Assembly (NCBI RefSeq): GCF_014855495.1
Contig: NZ_JACYFJ010000001.1
Span: 992,001-1,056,000, forward strand
DNA: 64,000 nt
DNA from: Euzebyella saccharophila
GTDB taxonomy: Bacteria; Bacteroidota; Bacteroidia; Flavobacteriales; Flavobacteriaceae
Reading direction: 5' to 3'
Of this stretch, positions 22,603-30,046 are shown one piece after another. The notes under the pieces were generated by a model, which saw only the letters and a program-made list of their open reading frames with translations, had not been told where the DNA came from and searched no databases. Position 1 is the stretch's first letter. Each line of letters opens with the position of its first letter. The translations under genes were made by a program, and so were the position numbers.

Positions 22603-24564
22603 TTACTCTCCCAGAGTATAAGTCAAGGGAACATCAGAATCTGCAGGGGAAACCCTAACATATCCTTGCATTTCTTGGTGAAGGGCAGAACAGAAATCCG
22701 TACAATAGAACGGCCATACGCCTACCTTTTTGGGTTCCCAGAGCGATGTTTTGGTCTGTCCGGGCATAATAAGCAGTTCAGAGGTATTCTGCCCGATCAT
22801 GGCAAATCCATGGGGCACATCGAAATCCTGCTCGTGATTGGTGATATGGAAGTATACCTTATCACCCACTTTTATACCTTCTATATTGTCTGGGGTAAAG
22901 TGACTTCTAATGGTGGACATATACACATGTACCTCTTTGCCCTCGCGAACCACTTTGGCCTGATCCGGACTGGTAACCGCAAACGGGTGCTTATTGTCAT
23001 CAAGTCTATATATTTTTTTGGATTTTGGAGCCAATAGCTCTGCAGGAATACCGGCAGCGTAATGTGGTTCTCCATGCGTAGGAAAATCATAGATCAGCTC
23101 CATCTTATCGCCAGAAATATCATATAATTGCGCCGAGTGTTCCATCTCCGGACCAGTAGGTAGGTATCTGTCCTTGGTAATCTTGTTCATGGCAACAACA
23201 TACTTGCCAAAAGGCTTTCTTGAGTTGCCCCCAGGAATCATTAAATGACCCACCGAATAGAAGGTAGGCTGCCTGTCCAAAACTTCCCAAGTCCCCAGTT
23301 TCCATTTTACTACTTCAGAGGAGATAAAAAAGGTAGTATATGCATTTCCTTTGTCATCAAACTCCGTATGTAAGGGCCCTAGTCCACCGCTTTTTACGGT
23401 CCCCGCCAATACATCCTCAAACTTAAGGATAGGTATTCCATAAGCTTCCCCATCAAATTTTTTGCCTTCAATGGCCGCAATCATCTTATCGAACGAATGT
23501 ATGGTAAGGTCCGCGGACAATTTTCCGTTTCCAATAATGTACTGTCCGGATGGATCTACGTCACAACCATGGGGAGACTTGGGGGTGGGCAGGAAGAAGA
23601 CGGCCCCGGGTACTTTTGTAGGGTCTACGGTAATTACTTCCTTCTTCATTGTGGAAGTAGCACTGTGTGTATGTTCATCGTATACGTTGTGGGCATATTC
23701 GGTGGCCATTTTGGTTCCTCCACCATTCTTAACGTATTCCGCTATCATCTTCCAATTGACCGCAGCGATGAAATCCTTATCGTTTTGGGATGAGTTTACC
23801 TCCATAAGTGAATTGGCCTCCTCTGTATTATAGGTAGTAAAAAAGAACCAACCGTGCGATTTGCCCCGTCCTGGGTGGGAAAGGTCATAGTTGAACCCTG
23901 GCATCATCATTTGAAAATCTAAATTCAGCCTACCTGTATCGGGTGCTATACTTATAAAGGAAAGTGCACCCTTGAAGTTGCCCTTGTACTCGTTAATGGG
24001 CATATCGCGCTGGGGAACGGGAACCGAAAAACGTGTTCCAGCAACCACATACTCCGTATTCTCCGTAATGAAAGAAGAACTATGGTTCCCTGCACTATTG
24101 GGCAATTCTATAATTTCCTCGGTCTCAAAGGTCGAAAGGCTTACCCTGGCTATTCTTGGTGTGTTGTTACCGTTGATGAAAATCCATCTTCCGTCCAACT
24201 CACCGTTGGTCTGGGAAATGTCAGGGTGGTGGGCATCGTCCCAAGGTACAAAGCCAAAGGAAGTGTTCAACATTGGTTTTGTTTCTTCGGAGTATCCGTA
24301 CCCTGATGTTGGGAATTGTGAAAATACTGGTATTTCCTTGAAAAGCCGGCCCGATGGTAATCCATATACCGTAATGTTACCGCTATATCCACCGGACATA
24401 AACGCATAAAACTCATCTTGCTCACCGGGAGCAACATATACCTTTTCGGCATTATTGGACGCAAGGGCACTATTGGAACCGCCATTTCCGTTCTGATTGC
24501 CGCAACTGGTCAACAGCAACGCCGATACCATTAATGCGGATATAAAATAATTGTACTTTTTCAT
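22603..24564 (-). CDS. nosZ: NosZ, clade II (Sec-type) nitrous oxide reductase
   Basis: The 653-residue protein reduces N2O to N2. It has a Sec/lipoprotein signal (lipobox LLTSC, Cys21) rather than a twin-arginine signal, a mark of clade II. By family alignment from memory, the seven CuZ histidines are His112, His113 (DDAHHPD), His161, His332, His399 (GPLHTEF), His476 and His501. The CuA site in the cupredoxin domain comprises His585 (FDVPHGF), Cys621, Cys625, His629 and Met632 (CTDFCSALHQEM). All catalytic ligands are present, so the enzyme should work. It follows the cytochrome and fasciclin genes and leads the maturation genes. Confidence 0.96.
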   Translation of the reverse strand: MKKYNYFISALMVSALLLTSCGNQNGNGGSNSALASNNAEKVYVAPGEQDEFYAFMSGGYSGNITVYGLPSGRLFKEIPVFSQFPTSGYGYSEETKPMLNTSFGFVPWDDAHHPDISQTNGELDGRWIFINGNNTPRIARVSLSTFETEEIIELPNSAGNHSSSFITENTEYVVAGTRFSVPVPQRDMPINEYKGNFKGALSFISIAPDTGRLNLDFQMMMPGFNYDLSHPGRGKSHGWFFFTTYNTEEANSLMEVNSSQNDKDFIAAVNWKMIAEYVKNGGGTKMATEYAHNVYDEHTHSATSTMKKEVITVDPTKVPGAVFFLPTPKSPHGCDVDPSGQYIIGNGKLSADLTIHSFDKMIAAIEGKKFDGEAYGIPILKFEDVLAGTVKSGGLGPLHTEFDDKGNAYTTFFISSEVVKWKLGTWEVLDRQPTFYSVGHLMIPGGNSRKPFGKYVVAMNKITKDRYLPTGPEMEHSAQLYDISGDKMELIYDFPTHGEPHYAAGIPAELLAPKSKKIYRLDDNKHPFAVTSPDQAKVVREGKEVHVYMSTIRSHFTPDNIEGIKVGDKVYFHITNHEQDFDVPHGFAMIGQNTSELLIMPGQTKTSLWEPKKVGVWPFYCTDFCSALHQEMQGYVRVSPADSDVPLTYTLGE

Positions 24565-24598: not shown

Positions 24599-25183
24599 TT
24601 ATTGGTTTGGGGGAAGAATTACTTTATCCACTACATGAACTATCCCATTTCCGGCTGGAATACTCGCAATAATCTTGGCACCTCCAACGTAGACGTCATC
24701 GCCTCTTACCTCAACTGTAGTATTTTGATCGTTTGCTTGGCCTAGTTTCTTGAATTTTTTAAGAAACCCTTTATCATAGTTTCCAGCGGTCACATGGTGT
24801 TTTAGAATATTGGCCAAAGCGTCTTTATTCTCAGGTTTCAACAATTCTTCTACGGTACCTGCCGGTAAGGCGTCAAAAGCGGCATTGGTGGGTGCAAAGA
24901 CCATTAACGGCCCTGCATTGACCAATGCGTTCTCCAAGCTTGCTGCTTGAACCGCGGCAACCAAGGTTGTATGATCCGATGAACCAATGGCAATCTGTAA
25001 TACATTAGGCTTTGATACATCATCTTCGATAAAGGCCTGCCCTTGTTTTTCGGTATTAGTAACTTCACTTGTTGCAGCGGGTGTATTACTTTTTTCTGGT
25101 TTGGCCTCATTTTTACAACTGCAAATCAAAAACAGCATTAAAAACGAGCCGACAACTAGTTTAAAATTGGTGGTTGTTCTCAT
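24599..25183 (-). CDS. Fasciclin-domain lipoprotein in the nos operon
   Basis: The 194-residue protein has a lipoprotein signal (lipobox LICSC, Cys23), a short charged linker and one fasciclin (FAS1) domain with the two hallmark motifs FAPTNAAF and GIVHVVDKVIL. It sits 12 nt after the cytochrome c gene and before nosZ. FAS1 lipoproteins occur in flavobacterial nos clusters; their role there is not established. It could act as an outer-surface or periplasmic scaffold. Confidence 0.9.
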   Translation of the reverse strand: MRTTTNFKLVVGSFLMLFLICSCKNEAKPEKSNTPAATSEVTNTEKQGQAFIEDDVSKPNVLQIAIGSSDHTTLVAAVQAASLENALVNAGPLMVFAPTNAAFDALPAGTVEELLKPENKDALANILKHHVTAGNYDKGFLKKFKKLGQANDQNTTVEVRGDDVYVGGAKIIASIPAGNGIVHVVDKVILPPNQ

Positions 25184-25195
25184 AATTATTTGAAT

Positions 25196-25699
25196 TTATA
25201 ATGTTCTAAAATATTCAAGGATCGACCGGGTCTCCTCCACGGTCAAATTCTGGTTGGCCATAGCCGCACCGTTAAATTCTATCAACAAATCTTTGGCACA
25301 GCGATCTTGTTCGGTCATCAACTTAGGGTCCAATATCATGTTCATGATCCATTCAGGGCTTCTACGCTCTAGGATTCCTTTTGGAGAGGGCCCTATAAAA
25401 CGTTTGTCCAACTTATGGCAGGCCGTACAGTTGGTCTTAAAGATTGCTTCTCCTGCTGCTGCCATTTCCATATTGATGACAGGGTCTAGTGTAATTTCTT
25501 TGATCTGCCCTACACCTTTATCTTCAAGCGTAATACGTTGTGAAGCGGGCACCTCGTTGTTAGGTTCTGGTGTTTCTGCTATCGTTTCTGTAGACTTTTT
25601 TCGATCCACATTAAAAGTCTCTTTCTTTTCCTCTTTACCTCCACAAGACAGTAATAGAAAGGAAATCACTAATCCGGTTACAAATGTTTTTGTATTCAT
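25196..25699 (-). CDS. Monoheme cytochrome c lipoprotein, likely electron donor to NosZ
   Basis: The 167-residue protein has a lipoprotein signal (Cys19), a charged linker and one class I cytochrome c domain with CTACH at 91-95. It ends with FRTL helices typical of the fold; Met121, Met128 or Met147 could be the axial ligand. As the first gene of the nos operon it is the likely direct donor of electrons to the CuA site of NosZ. Confidence 0.9.
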   Translation of the reverse strand: MNTKTFVTGLVISFLLLSCGGKEEKKETFNVDRKKSTETIAETPEPNNEVPASQRITLEDKGVGQIKEITLDPVINMEMAAAGEAIFKTNCTACHKLDKRFIGPSPKGILERRSPEWIMNMILDPKLMTEQDRCAKDLLIEFNGAAMANQNLTVEETRSILEYFRTL

Positions 25700-25819
25700 A
25701 TTTCAAAATTTAGGTTGTTGTCTTGAAAGTTCCCGTTAGGTGTCTTTAATGGCGAAAAAGAATGTATTTGTTTACCCATTTAATTTCCGTTTCAGGTACT
25801 TTATTATTGTTTTATGACT

Positions 25820-25827
25820 CAAAATTA
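25820..25827 (-). promoter_or_regulatory. -7 box for the nos operon
   Basis: CAAAATTA on the plus strand is TAATTTTG on the minus strand, matching TAnnTTTG. Transcription would start near 25816, giving a leader of about 115 nt before the cytochrome gene. No clear -33 TTTG is present 19 nt upstream, which fits an activator-dependent promoter. Confidence 0.5.
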
Positions 25828-25849
25828 GTGGTAAGGCCAGCCATTAAAC

Positions 25850-25863
25850 ATGATATTTATCAT
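25850..25863. promoter_or_regulatory. Fnr/Crp-like palindrome between the nos operon and the Rrf2 gene
   Basis: ATGATATTTATCAT has perfect 6-bp arms and a TT centre. It contains the Fnr-type core TGAT-N4-ATCA. Its centre lies about 40-42 bp upstream of the predicted nos start near 25816, the usual place for a class II activator. It also lies upstream of the -7 box of the Rrf2 gene, so one protein could act on both. An Rrf2 operator is the alternative. Confidence 0.45.
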
Positions 25864-25891
25864 AAAGAGGATAAAAAAGTCTTTTAATCTT

Positions 25892-25899
25892 TATATTTG
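25892..25899 (+). promoter_or_regulatory. -7 box for the Rrf2 regulator
   Basis: TATATTTG matches TAnnTTTG. The implied start near 25905 leaves a very short leader before ATG at 25916. Confidence 0.5.
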
Positions 25900-25915
25900 T
25901 AAAAAACGAATAAAT

Positions 25916-26347
25916 ATGCTTTCCAACTCTTCCAAATACGCTTTGACCGCAGTACTTTATCTGGCTGTAAATTCTTCTTTTGAACATAAAATCCTGGCCA
26001 AGGATATCAGTAAGGAAACCCAAATACCACAAGCGTATCTTTCAAAGTTGATGCAGGAACTTACCAGACACAATTTAATTTCCTCGGTACGGGGACCTAA
26101 CGGCGGATTTTATTTGAACGAAGAAAACAGGGAGGTCTCCCTTCTGGAAATAGTGAACATTATTGATGGCGATAATAGGTTAACCTCCTGCATGCTGGGT
26201 TTACACTCCTGTAATAGCGACCATCCCTGCCCGGTTCACCATTTGGTTGGAGATACCAAGACAAAATTTGTTGAAAATCTTAAAAAAACTACCGTACAGG
26301 ATTTGGTGGCGGATATAAAAATGGGGAAAAGTTTTTTAGGCATTTGA
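25916..26347 (+). CDS. Rrf2/NsrR-like Fe-S transcriptional regulator, divergent from nos
   Basis: From ATG at 25916 this is a 143-residue Rrf2 winged-helix protein. The recognition helix region is DISKETQIPQAYLSKLMQEL, and the wing is SVRGPNGGFYL. Three cysteines, 92, 99 and 105 (CMLGLHSCNSDHPC), have the spacing that binds an Fe-S cluster in IscR and NsrR. It is transcribed away from the nos operon across 216 bp. NO or redox sensing that controls nos is a reasonable inference. A longer frame opens at 25850 but covers the promoter, so it was not used. Confidence 0.85.
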   Translation: MLSNSSKYALTAVLYLAVNSSFEHKILAKDISKETQIPQAYLSKLMQELTRHNLISSVRGPNGGFYLNEENREVSLLEIVNIIDGDNRLTSCMLGLHSCNSDHPCPVHHLVGDTKTKFVENLKKTTVQDLVADIKMGKSFLGI

Positions 26348-26473: not shown

Positions 26474-27328
26474 TTAAAACTCTAGCTCAAAATATAGGGA
26501 ACTGGCTTCGTTTTCATCGGTTACCGGTTCACCCTTTAGTACATCGCCTTGCTTATTGAATAGTTGTAGGTTTATCTTCCAGTAACCGGTCATGGTAAGT
26601 GAAAGTTTTCCATTATATTTTCCTGTGGAAGAATCAAAAGTCAGATTTTCGTTGTTTGGGGAACTATGGTTGCCCATACTTGGCATTCTGGGATCTATGC
26701 CCAAGGTATAACCTTCCACTATTGGAAAATTCATCATATTCTCCATTTGAAAGACCATGGCGGAAAACGCGTTAACCTTCACTTCAGGTTCAAAGGGTAT
26801 CATGGCTACAATATATCTTTTATCATCGGCCCCAATAAAGCTCTGAACACGTTTAAAACCATCTTCAGGCATTCCTACATCTATCCGTTCTGAAATAGCA
26901 TAGGTTTCCCCATCCAAGGTGTATTCCATATTCAGTTCCCAATACTCATCAGCATTACCTGGCATTTGAAACACGGCATATCCCATATATATCGTATCGT
27001 CTTCCATTTTGGAAATGGCGGATTTTGGACAGGAATGGGTCATAGAGGTCATGTGCATCAAAGGATTAACAGTAATTTGGGCATTGGAGAGATAGGTATC
27101 GGTACTTTCGTCCTTTATCCTATAATAGAACATGTTATAACCCACAGTAAAATCAGTATTCTCCGAATACAACTCGATTGTATGGTTATTGGCGGAGAGG
27201 GTCGTAAGTCGGTTCATTTCAGATAGTGGGTTTTCTTGCACGATAACGGGGTCGTCATTATCATCTGAACAGGAATTGAATAAGATGGCCACAGCCAAGG
27301 TTACAAGAAGAAATTTTATGGTTTTCAT
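26474..27328 (-). CDS. Met/His-rich lipoprotein, likely copper handling
   Basis: The 284-residue protein has a lipoprotein signal (LFNSC, Cys20). It contains MHMTSMTHSC near residue 91 and PRMPSMGNHSS near 215, clusters of Met and His like those of periplasmic Cu(I)-binding FixH/YtkA-like proteins. It follows a TonB receptor gene by about 45 nt. I infer that it takes over copper from the receptor. Nothing else identifies it. Confidence 0.6.
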   Translation of the reverse strand: MKTIKFLLVTLAVAILFNSCSDDNDDPVIVQENPLSEMNRLTTLSANNHTIELYSENTDFTVGYNMFYYRIKDESTDTYLSNAQITVNPLMHMTSMTHSCPKSAISKMEDDTIYMGYAVFQMPGNADEYWELNMEYTLDGETYAISERIDVGMPEDGFKRVQSFIGADDKRYIVAMIPFEPEVKVNAFSAMVFQMENMMNFPIVEGYTLGIDPRMPSMGNHSSPNNENLTFDSSTGKYNGKLSLTMTGYWKINLQLFNKQGDVLKGEPVTDENEASSLYFELEF

Positions 27329-27373: not shown

Positions 27374-29440
27374 TTAATTAATGGCATATGAAAGGGTCAG
27401 ATAGATATTGCGGCCCATTCTTGGAATATTGTTCCAGTCCGTATAGGTGGAATAATAGGTGTCAAATAAATTTTCTACGCCTACCTGTGCATCTAATCGG
27501 TCATCACTGATAAAAAAGGTTTTGGCCACGGAAAGGGATACCACGTTGTAGGCGGAAGTACTATCTTCGCCAAATTCTGAATTAAAATTCACTTGGTCCG
27601 CCGCACCTCGTAAACTTAGTGAAGCAGAGAACTTGGGCAAGGAATATCGAAAGCTGGTGGAGTAGGTAAGCGGACTTATAAAAGGTAGGTTCCTACTGTC
27701 TTGGTCAACACCCCGGTGGTAACTTACCAAGCCATTATATTTAAGGTTCTTGCTCATATCCCAGACTCCATTTATGCTTACGTTGAACAAGTTAGCGTAC
27801 TCCAGGTTCCTATAGATTTTTACCCCGTCAGCCCCTATAGTCATGGTGCTGAGGGTGGGGTCTATTTCCCCAAGAATATAGTTTTGTGTATGAAAAAAGT
27901 TGCCCTCTGCCCCAATTTTTCCATTTTTGAAAGGAAGTGAGATTTTGGATTTCAGCTCCAAAGCGCCTTCATTTTTAAGGTTAGGGTCGCCAATATAATC
28001 GTGATTGTCAAAACTGTTGAACAGATAGAAACCAAATGCCTCCGAGACCGAAGGTGCCCTATCGCCATAGGAAACGCCATTCACAAGCTCAACATTTTTA
28101 AAAGTATACCGATATTCAGTGGACAGACTTTTTAGAAAACGGGCCTGTGTTTGTTCCATAGAGTGATAAAAAATGCGTAAGCTGTTTCGACCAAACTCAT
28201 TGGCAACATTAGTACCCTGTGCGGAAATTCTCCCGGCAATAATTAATACACTATTTTCAAAGGCCATGGTGTTTTCTGCAAATAGTCCGGTGTTGAGCGT
28301 TCGAACATCGGGCCATGTAAGCATAAACATGGAGGCCTCGTTGGGATTATTGGGATACATCGTCATTTCGGCCAAGGACTTGTTGTAAAATCCGTCCCAC
28401 TTAAAAAGCCATTTGTGCCCACCGCTCTGTAACCTTGCCTGCGAATAAAAACCATAGGTGTCGCTCCATCCAGGCATATCCATACGGATGGGAACATCTG
28501 GTCGTTGGCTGTCATCCATAATATGGGTAATGGAATTGGCGTATATTTTTGTTTCCCACTCATACAAATCACCTAAAAACGTATCCTGCACCCAACTTAA
28601 GGAACCAATAAAGGCCCTAGCCAAGGAGACATCCATGGGTAAGGCGGGGTATCCTACGTCCTTGGCCTCATCAAAAATAAAACTTGCGAGGAGTTTTTGG
28701 CTCTCGGAGAATTTTACCCCAGTGTTCAAGGAGACATTGTATTTGGTAAACTGGGAATAGGCCACCTCTTCCCCGTCGCCCGAAATGTAATTGTCCGCAT
28801 CCCTATAAATGATATCCGAATCAACATAGAAACTATCCGAAGCATAATTAAGTTCGTATCCATAGATACGTGCATTGTTATTGCTTTCAAAACCGGTCTC
28901 AACGGCACTTTTCCAATCCGTTTGAACAAATCCACTTTTTTCCAGGCGCATATCCAGTGCCCCACCAATGGCGTTGCCCATCTTGGCACCTTGTTGGCCA
29001 CTGGCAACATGTACATTTGATAGGTTTGAAACATCCACATACGAGGTAACGGGATCCATACGATCGGTACAGGCCCCAAAAATTCGCATACCGTCTATGG
29101 TGACAGACAAACGTTCCGAAGCCATATCATTGATCATGGGTTCCCAGGCATAGGCCCCTCTTTTTATCATGGAAACTTTTTGGGAAGACTCCAAATATCC
29201 ATCAAGGGTAGCAAGAGGTTTTTGGTATGAACGATGTTCCATATCTTTATAAATGGGTGCGATTACAATAACCTCCGCGAGGTTGATCGGTAAGATGGAA
29301 TCTTGATCTAAAGGAACGGGAACTTCCTGTCCAATACCTTTTCCATGAAAACTTAGGCAACAAAGTGCCAATAAGGCCATGTTGATGGTTTTTGGGCCTT
29401 TGAATACCCAAAATACCGGCCTTTTAAAGAAATAATACAT
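27374..29440 (-). CDS. TonB-dependent outer-membrane receptor, probably for copper (NosA/OprC-like)
   Basis: The frame gives about 688 residues from ATG at 29440, with an N-terminal signal, a plug domain (VTIDGMRIFGACTDRMDPVTSYVD and MGNAIGGALDM) and a C-terminal beta-barrel ending in YLTLSYAIN. Cys and Met residues in the plug (GACTDRMDPV) recall the copper receptors NosA/OprC, which feed NosZ maturation in other bacteria. It sits 1.1 kb from the head of the nos operon and between two other probable copper proteins. The assignment to copper is an inference from context and the plug motif. Confidence 0.75.
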   Translation of the reverse strand: MYYFFKRPVFWVFKGPKTINMALLALCCLSFHGKGIGQEVPVPLDQDSILPINLAEVIVIAPIYKDMEHRSYQKPLATLDGYLESSQKVSMIKRGAYAWEPMINDMASERLSVTIDGMRIFGACTDRMDPVTSYVDVSNLSNVHVASGQQGAKMGNAIGGALDMRLEKSGFVQTDWKSAVETGFESNNNARIYGYELNYASDSFYVDSDIIYRDADNYISGDGEEVAYSQFTKYNVSLNTGVKFSESQKLLASFIFDEAKDVGYPALPMDVSLARAFIGSLSWVQDTFLGDLYEWETKIYANSITHIMDDSQRPDVPIRMDMPGWSDTYGFYSQARLQSGGHKWLFKWDGFYNKSLAEMTMYPNNPNEASMFMLTWPDVRTLNTGLFAENTMAFENSVLIIAGRISAQGTNVANEFGRNSLRIFYHSMEQTQARFLKSLSTEYRYTFKNVELVNGVSYGDRAPSVSEAFGFYLFNSFDNHDYIGDPNLKNEGALELKSKISLPFKNGKIGAEGNFFHTQNYILGEIDPTLSTMTIGADGVKIYRNLEYANLFNVSINGVWDMSKNLKYNGLVSYHRGVDQDSRNLPFISPLTYSTSFRYSLPKFSASLSLRGAADQVNFNSEFGEDSTSAYNVVSLSVAKTFFISDDRLDAQVGVENLFDTYYSTYTDWNNIPRMGRNIYLTLSYAIN

Positions 29441-29529
29441 AGTAATGTTTTTAAGATGACCCATACAGGGGGTGCTTTACGAATCCACATGACCGTGGAC
29501 GCAAACACAATAATCAAATGGATACTGTA

Positions 29530-29907
29530 TTAGAACAGTTCCGGGGGTTTCCCGAAATCGGAAAAAAGAAGTGAAGAAATTAACCCAGAAACCCCTGGGA
29601 AGTTGTTCCTTTTTTTATCAAAAACCGTTAGAGTGAAATCTATTGGGGCCAGGACTTCAAAAAAGACCAAGTGTATACTCTCCAACTTGGAGCGCTTTTC
29701 CCCAAAGGGATTATCCTCGCTATTCTTGGTCTCCTTGGCCAACTGTTTGGCTAAGTAACACTTTCCGTCGCACTGTAACTCTGGACGATCTTTGTTTTCG
29801 CACAGAACGTTTACGATATAGTCGTAATTTACAATGTACTCCACTATGGGCCATAGGGGCTTGACCAACATGGCCAGGGAGACACAAAGTATAACGACTT
29901 GTTTCAT
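29530..29907 (-). CDS. Small membrane-anchored protein with CDGKC motif
   Basis: The 125-residue protein starts with a hydrophobic segment (VILCVSLAMLVKPLWPIVEYI) and contains VLCENKDRPELQCDGKCYLAKQL. The three cysteines suit a metal or redox site in the periplasm. It is the first gene of the operon with the TonB receptor and the Met/His lipoprotein. Homologous small CxxxC proteins often stand upstream of copper TonB receptors in Bacteroidetes. The function is not proven. Confidence 0.65.
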   Translation of the reverse strand: MKQVVILCVSLAMLVKPLWPIVEYIVNYDYIVNVLCENKDRPELQCDGKCYLAKQLAKETKNSEDNPFGEKRSKLESIHLVFFEVLAPIDFTLTVFDKKRNNFPGVSGLISSLLFSDFGKPPELF

Positions 29908-29931: not shown

Positions 29932-30020
29932 GCTGGTATATCCCATAAAAAATGGAGATTACCGTTTAATAAGTACAAATCTATGAAGGCGTCTCCCTAA
30001 AGAATATGACAAATATCAGC

Positions 30021-30046
30021 AATAAAGGATAAAAATATCCTTTATT
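30021..30046. promoter_or_regulatory. Perfect 11-4-11 inverted repeat in the divergent region
   Basis: AATAAAGGATA and its reverse complement flank AAAA. It lies within the 392 bp gene-free stretch 29908-30299 between the copper-uptake operon and the TetR gene. No converging genes exist here, so an operator is likelier than a terminator. Confidence 0.5.

Follow-up and report, generated by a model that had tools for sequence, protein, structure and literature searches.

A putative two-input promoter of clade II nos genes in Flavobacteriaceae with adjacent FNR-type and Rrf2-type sites

The region between the nos operon and a divergent rrf2 gene of Euzebyella saccharophila (positions 25820-25899 of the window, the 64,000-nucleotide stretch of DNA that was analysed) is probably a two-input promoter, which would be switched on by low oxygen together with the nitric oxide (NO)-triggered release of an Rrf2 repressor. 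Its DNA architecture of two sites is well supported by comparison across the family. The arrangement suggests that these genes, with which marine flavobacteria destroy the greenhouse gas nitrous oxide (N2O), respond to low oxygen and in addition to another signal that is probably related to NO.

Layout and conservation of the nos promoter

The promoter region and the genes on both sides of it contain the following features:

25850-25863, minus strand: motif 1, a 14-bp FNR-type palindrome read out from the sequence, ATGATATTTATCAT (ATGATAAATATCAT in nos orientation)
25869-25882, minus strand: motif 2, a candidate Rrf2-type operator, AGACTTTTTTATCC, of the pattern RGAY-N6-RTCY, defined by its family footprint
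25820-25827, minus strand: nos -7 box, TAATTTTG, with exactly 22 nt between it and motif 1
25892-25899, plus strand: rrf2 -7 box, TATATTTG, 9 nt from motif 2
25916-26347, plus strand: rrf2 gene, 143 amino acids (PF02082, 111 bits)
25196-25699, minus strand: c-type cytochrome, gene 1 of the nos operon (PF00034)
24599-25183, minus strand: fasciclin-domain protein of the nos operon (PF02469)
22603-24564, minus strand: Sec-dependent clade II NosZ (TIGR04246, 929 bits versus a cut-off of 625)

Motif 1 is centred at 25856.5, about 40.5 bp (near -41) from the predicted nos start at 25816. The initial annotation had described this palindrome with its TGAT-N4-ATCA core, -7 boxes on both strands, a distance of about 41 bp to the nos start and the absence of a -33 box; all of these were confirmed, and no TTG is found at the -33 position on the nos side of the window. 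With a site near -41.5 of the predicted start that overlaps the missing -35/-33 element, the nos promoter is, as read from its sequence, of class II activator anatomy. Relative to the predicted starts, the centre of motif 2 is at about -60 for nos and about -28 for rrf2. A sigma-70 scan detected a single promoter-like site, below the mean of the shuffles; a terminator scan was negative. The predicted nos leader (25700-25816) is about 116 nt long in the window versus mostly 13-37 nt in relatives. Among the matches listed, the best named relatives of the NosZ, with 87-91% identity, come from Cellulophaga, Kriegella, Eudoraea, Muricauda and Maribacter-type genomes.

The palindrome by itself is near chance and unremarkable. 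Its bare core TGAT-N4-ATCA was found twice in the window versus 1.5 expected and is not enriched, and the pattern ATGAY-N4-RTCAT occurs once, with at least one occurrence also in 22 of 100 shuffles. Searching with the canonical FNR consensus TTGAT-N4-ATCAA and one mismatch allowed gave six sites in the window where 5.6 were expected, which is chance level. This closeness to the shuffle expectation is what speaks for an accidental palindrome and a nos operon transcribed from a constitutive promoter. We give that reading next to no credence, since the palindrome combined with a -7 box at 22 nt was reached in none of 200 dinucleotide shuffles and the same spacing is conserved across the family. 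It is because of the conservation across the nos loci of the family, the decisive evidence, that we judge the palindrome to be real.

A search for NosZ was positive in 120 of the 249 family genomes, including that of the window. Upstream stretches were obtained for the window and for 110 of the other 119 nosZ genomes, and one cut locus was dropped (n = 110). The same motif recurs before the other nos clusters of the family, a check named in the initial annotation: ATGAY-N4-RTCAT or a close variant stands upstream of nos in 105 of the 110 loci (TGAY in 104, TGAG in one); 94 of the 105 have a TAnnTTTG box that begins exactly 22 nt downstream. When the loci are lined up on motif 1, columns 36-43 read TAnnTTTG almost without variation; a TTG at -33 was found in none of the 92 nos loci tested. 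When the whole upstream stretch was scanned in the named-genome set, 75 of 80 loci had a class II site, with a spacer of 22 in 74 of the 75 and motif 2 in 70 of them; three of the five loci lacking a class II site are short contigs. Covariation between the half-sites of motif 1 is weak (p 0.50). The sites retain the TGA/TCA core of FNR sites, but their outer bases are A and T in nearly all loci, and TTGAT-N4-ATCAA as the consensus of the site had to be corrected to ATGAY-N4-RTCAT.

Beyond the family, loci from other families of the same order or class have an ATGAY- or CTGAY-type palindrome near the first gene in 11 of 21 cases; the box is exactly 22 nt away in two of the 11. None of 14 loci from outside the class has such a palindrome. 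Deep conservation of motif 1 was rejected on these counts. Within the family, the fixed spacing, the missing -33 box, other promoters built in the same way and a site upstream of an fnr-like gene (see below) together support the initial proposal that nos would be activated by an Fnr-type protein in class II fashion.

Candidate proteins for the two sites

A signal of the Rrf2 type had been proposed for this region from the outset. An Rrf2-type site does appear to exist, but as a separate operator adjacent to the palindrome, motif 2, which the initial annotation did not describe. Motif 2 is present in 78 of the 100 motif-1 nos loci whose genomes encode a homologue of the Rrf2 protein versus none of the five whose genomes do not (Fisher p 0.0008, uncorrected for relatedness). 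With at least seven of eight positions matching at the fixed place, it occurs in 46 of 59 motif-1 loci with a divergent rrf2 gene, in 32 of 41 with the homologue elsewhere and in 0 of 5 without one, against a background of 0.3%. The 78 perfect sites are offset from motif 1 by -19 in 69 cases, -20 in eight and -18 in one. Covariation of the half-sites is weak overall (outer pair p 0.007, inner pair p 0.25). Three nos loci (L119, L132 and L148) are without motif 1 and have a perfect motif 2 somewhere in their upstream region.

The site also appears away from nos. It stands 52-62 nt before the start of all 20 sister-group rrf2 genes that were fetched, and 18 of these 20 stretches (L217-L236) contain the NO-damage gene ric; the one ric protein searched passes the RIC model. 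In seven of 18 further Rrf2 loci, a perfect motif 2 was found no more than 200 nt upstream; of the 18, ric was found in two, a norB-like gene in two and nirK in one, and 13 have none of these genes in the stretch. Two other identities of motif 2 were rejected. It is not a general part of class II promoters, as it was not found within 40 nt upstream of any of the 26 class II sites examined away from nos. Nor does it look by inspection like a second Crp-type site, since the G-to-C distance of its half-sites is 11, versus 9 in the consensus of FNR and CRP. We consider motif 2 most likely an operator of the Rrf2 family.

Control of the rrf2 gene from the same palindrome, which the initial annotation also proposed, found weak support. 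In the window, about 47 bp separate motif 1 from the predicted rrf2 start. Its spacing to the closest rrf2-side box differs between relatives, with 22-23 nt in 15 of 59 loci, other values in 23 and no box found in 21. Such spacing is too variable for rrf2 to be driven from the nos palindrome. Among 55 loci with a perfect motif 2, an rrf2 -7 box was found in 39; the two are 2-9 nt apart in 26 of these, a proximity that suits autorepression. It thus seems more likely that rrf2 is controlled by motif 2 rather than by the palindrome.

The Rrf2 protein of the window has the Cys3-His cluster ligand pattern of IscR. The pattern C92-x6-C99-x5-C105-x2-H108 is present in 60/60, 20/20, 18/18 and 56/56 Rrf2 homologues (the named and unnamed sets overlap), and H108 aligns with a histidine of the IscR chain that we take to be a cluster ligand. 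The predicted structure (mean pLDDT 91) matches the folds of RsrR, IscR and CymR ahead of NsrR. Scores against the NCBIfam equivalog models stay below their cut-offs, at 42.5 bits for NsrR (cut-off 182) and 86.5 bits for IscR (cut-off 207.55). The Rrf2 sequence tree is poorly resolved. In four nos loci (L050, L051, L053 and L097) the divergent slot is held by an Rrf2 of the sister type, so the slot does not belong to one orthologous clade. The sign and the signal of the Rrf2 protein are deduced from gene neighbours, which make NO the likeliest signal.

For motif 1, the best candidate activator by sequence is an FNR-like protein of 229 amino acids encoded in the same genome (C2:2538-3227, L256). 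It has the Crp-family domains PF00027 and PF13545, and its best NCBIfam model is FNR (PRK11161) with 106.6 bits, below the cut-off of 228. Of 15 candidates scored in this genome it was the only match, in a search with E up to 1e-8 that more distant Crp proteins escape. Its gene adjoins a cbb3 oxidase cluster (metal-ATPase and FixO-bearing genes and a HemN-type radical-SAM gene) and is preceded by a class II site. Orthologous fnr-like genes have a motif-1-like site upstream in 27 of the 29 loci parsed (of 30), and the fnr-like gene is probably autoregulated. The site before these genes (L157-L186) mostly ends in TCAG instead of TCAT, as if autoregulation used a weaker half-site. FNR holds its cluster with four cysteines, three N-terminal and one central. 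Cysteines C5, C8, C54 and C107 of the FNR-like protein are invariant in 29 of 29 orthologues, and three of them align with FNR cysteines, but C54 does not; one N-terminal cysteine of the FNR set is missing. The recognition helix TATESCIR aligns with LTVETISR of FNR, with E and R kept and serine replaced by isoleucine.

Other promoters share this build. Starting with A or G, the class II pattern occurs at four places in the window's own genome, one of them before the fnr-like gene, and a site before a copper-receptor-like gene, which starts with C, is the fifth. It is present in 195 of the 249 family genomes, whereas the reversed control, read by eye, gave matches in about 17 genomes with at most two each. 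Of eight first genes searched downstream of other class II sites, hemN (twice), ccoS, ccoN and pckA score above the NCBIfam cut-offs, one that resembles pta stays just below (397 versus 418), and two encode Usp proteins. A small protein rich in cysteines follows the class II site at C12:256206 (L156), close to a gene whose start resembles a metal-binding sequence; by eye, this locus is perhaps copper-related.

For 30 of the 110 nos loci, the FNR-like protein is missing from the genome, which gave no match at E up to 1e-40. Motif 1 is kept in all 30, with the box at 22 nt in 23 of them, so its binder is not the same protein everywhere. All 22 of these genomes that were checked contain a frame of about 350-400 amino acids with a receiver-like start (one parsed from an inner start), and in six of six proteins searched a receiver, a cNMP and a Crp helix-turn-helix domain were found. 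Most fusions have ATES-L-IR as the core of the recognition helix, where the FNR-like protein has the similar ATES-C-IR. In all six loci inspected with Pfam, the fusion gene adjoins a histidine kinase, and usp-like genes are also nearby; the kinase sequences run off the end of the stretch, and a PAS domain was found in one of the six. The fusions are those of L410-L413, L415-L431 and L433-L437, of which L432 is not part as it is not a fusion. One genome, G094 (L436), encodes both proteins, while other fusion genomes mostly lack the FNR-like protein; that of the window has the FNR-like protein and no fusion. A response regulator-Crp fusion thus seems to replace the FNR-like protein in the genomes of these 30 nos loci, and we infer that both proteins would bind motif 1.

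Proposed mechanism, alternatives and known systems

In the mechanism that we propose, low oxygen would activate the FNR-like Crp-family protein, which would bind motif 1 and recruit RNA polymerase to nos. The Rrf2 protein from the divergent gene would carry an Fe-S cluster on C92, C99, C105 and H108 and occupy motif 2. There it would repress its own core promoter and also hold nos down, since at the usual site sizes it would reach into the zone of the activator or the alpha-CTD. Damage to the cluster by NO, or by a related signal, would release the Rrf2 protein. The outcome would be an AND gate, in which nos is expressed at low oxygen when there is also evidence of nitrogen oxides.

The near-fixed offset between the two motifs could equally mean cooperative activation. 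Rrf2 would then be a class I-like co-activator at about -60 that aids the FNR-like protein, and loss of its cluster would switch nos off. The offset of -19 in 69 of 78 sites is in line with this, as is the position around -60, which by arithmetic lies on nearly the same helix face. We nevertheless consider it unlikely, because the five nos loci in genomes without an Rrf2 match keep motif 1 with no motif 2 at its place, L119, L132 and L148 keep a perfect motif 2 without motif 1, and the motif 2 of rrf2 and of the sister rrf2 genes is situated within or close to the core promoter, a placement that fits repression. As each site is also found without the other, independent inputs are favoured. Even more doubtful, in our judgement, is that motif 1 is bound by another Crp-family protein, for example of the NO-sensing Dnr type, so that both inputs would report NO. 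Crp-family proteins recognise similar palindromes, and the 30 nos loci without the FNR-like protein that keep motif 1 are also in favour. Against it, the FNR-like protein was the sole match among the 15 candidates (distant Crp proteins being missed at E up to 1e-8), four of its cysteines are invariant, its gene has a motif 1 of its own, and the other class II sites precede genes of oxygen-regulon type (hemN, ccoS, ccoN and usp).

FNR, ANR and FixK2 activate nos and cbb3 oxidase genes of Proteobacteria in class II fashion. The system described here resembles theirs in the Crp-family palindrome near -41, the partner genes ccoN, ccoS, hemN and usp and an FNR-like candidate regulator. It differs in the site (ATGAY-N4-RTCAT instead of TTGAT-N4-ATCAA), in the Bacteroidota -7 box TAnnTTTG and, compared to FNR, in the missing N-terminal cysteine and the different fourth invariant cysteine C54. 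IscR and RsrR are Rrf2-family proteins with a 2Fe-2S cluster and are the best sequence and fold matches of the window Rrf2; unlike IscR, the latter scores below the IscR cut-off and has nos genes, not isc genes, as neighbours. NsrR is an NO-sensing Rrf2 repressor with the operator gATGyAT-N5-ATrCATc (Rodionov 2005, PMC1274295). Shared with NsrR are the Rrf2 family, three cysteines, a sister group linked to ric, probable autorepression and further relatives that in a few cases neighbour nirK or norB-like genes, whereas the operator RGAY-N6-RTCY, a score far below the NsrR cut-off and the spacing C-x6-C-x5-C-x2-H set the window Rrf2 apart.

Rrf2 genes beside nos on clade II scaffolds are already on record, and the gene neighbourhood found here is the same; the main text of that report has no mention of a motif, palindrome or binding site (PMC6264515). 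Published operators like motif 1 or motif 2 for clade II or flavobacterial nos genes were not found in the open-licence literature, and the main text of a Flavobacterium transcriptome paper mentions neither Fnr, Crp, a palindrome nor nosZ (PMC9723704). The relevant section of a metatranscriptome study of a nitritation-anammox community gives no evidence that Crp/Fnr regulates denitrification in Ignavibacteria and the others of that section, and places Flavobacteriales Crp proteins near MalR (PMC8510549). In two further studies, denitrification gene expression in isolates including Cloacibacterium was reported to be unaffected by the N2O level (PMC9239227) and strain CB-01 was studied during the switch from oxygen to N2O (PMC11168931). 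These results fit oxygen or NO, not N2O, as the signal.

Second composite module and putative copper genes

The window contains a second module of the same composition upstream of a putative copper-related operon:

29976-30042: second module, whole, with a spacer of 22
30006-30019, minus strand: motif 1 variant, CTGATATTTGTCAT
30027-30040, minus strand: motif 2, GGATATTTTTATCC, inside AAGGATATTTTTATCCTT (30025-30042)
29976-29983, minus strand: -7 box, TAGATTTG, 22 nt from the motif 1 variant
29530-29907, minus strand: small membrane-like protein under the second module
27374-29464, minus strand: TonB receptor most like the copper receptor family, under the second module
26474-27328, minus strand: YtkA-like protein under the second module

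For the TonB receptor, TIGR01778 (OprC/NosA) is the best family matched, with 125.8 bits below the cut-off of 472.45; receptors of three relatives likewise match it best at a sub-cut-off 118.7 to 135.3 bits. An extra composite site was fetched in five relatives, in four before a like small protein and receptor and in one before the copper nitrite reductase gene nirK (L387, G168:C1:2679900-2684500; 352.3 bits versus a cut-off of 296.3). The exact two-motif pattern is enriched, with matches in 93 of the 249 genomes, but as the reversed control matches in about 15, single two-motif sites away from nos can be due to chance. In the whole genome of the window the strict motif-2 pattern was found at two places, the second module and contig 11, with one match of the control; the nos motif 2 misses this strict pattern by one base. 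Since the same module stands before a copper-receptor-like operon, the nos enzyme and its copper supply may be switched together.

For a wider proposal we find the balance about even. Flavobacteriaceae would use one low-oxygen operator, ATGAY-N4-RTCAT, with two interchangeable sensors: the FNR-like protein with C5, C8, C54 and C107, or the fusion with its kinase, comparable to FixL/FixJ/FixK in two genes. At nos, at the copper-receptor genes and, in one genome, at nirK, this operator would be joined to an Rrf2 operator that is not NsrR-like, forming an AND gate for two gases.

A major greenhouse gas, N2O, has natural sinks in clade II reducers such as flavobacteria. With a defined two-site promoter, the timing at which N2O reduction is switched on becomes testable. 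If the second input is NO, strains that are unable to make NO would rely on NO leaking from their neighbours, and such reliance, if true, would affect their use as N2O-mitigating inoculants.
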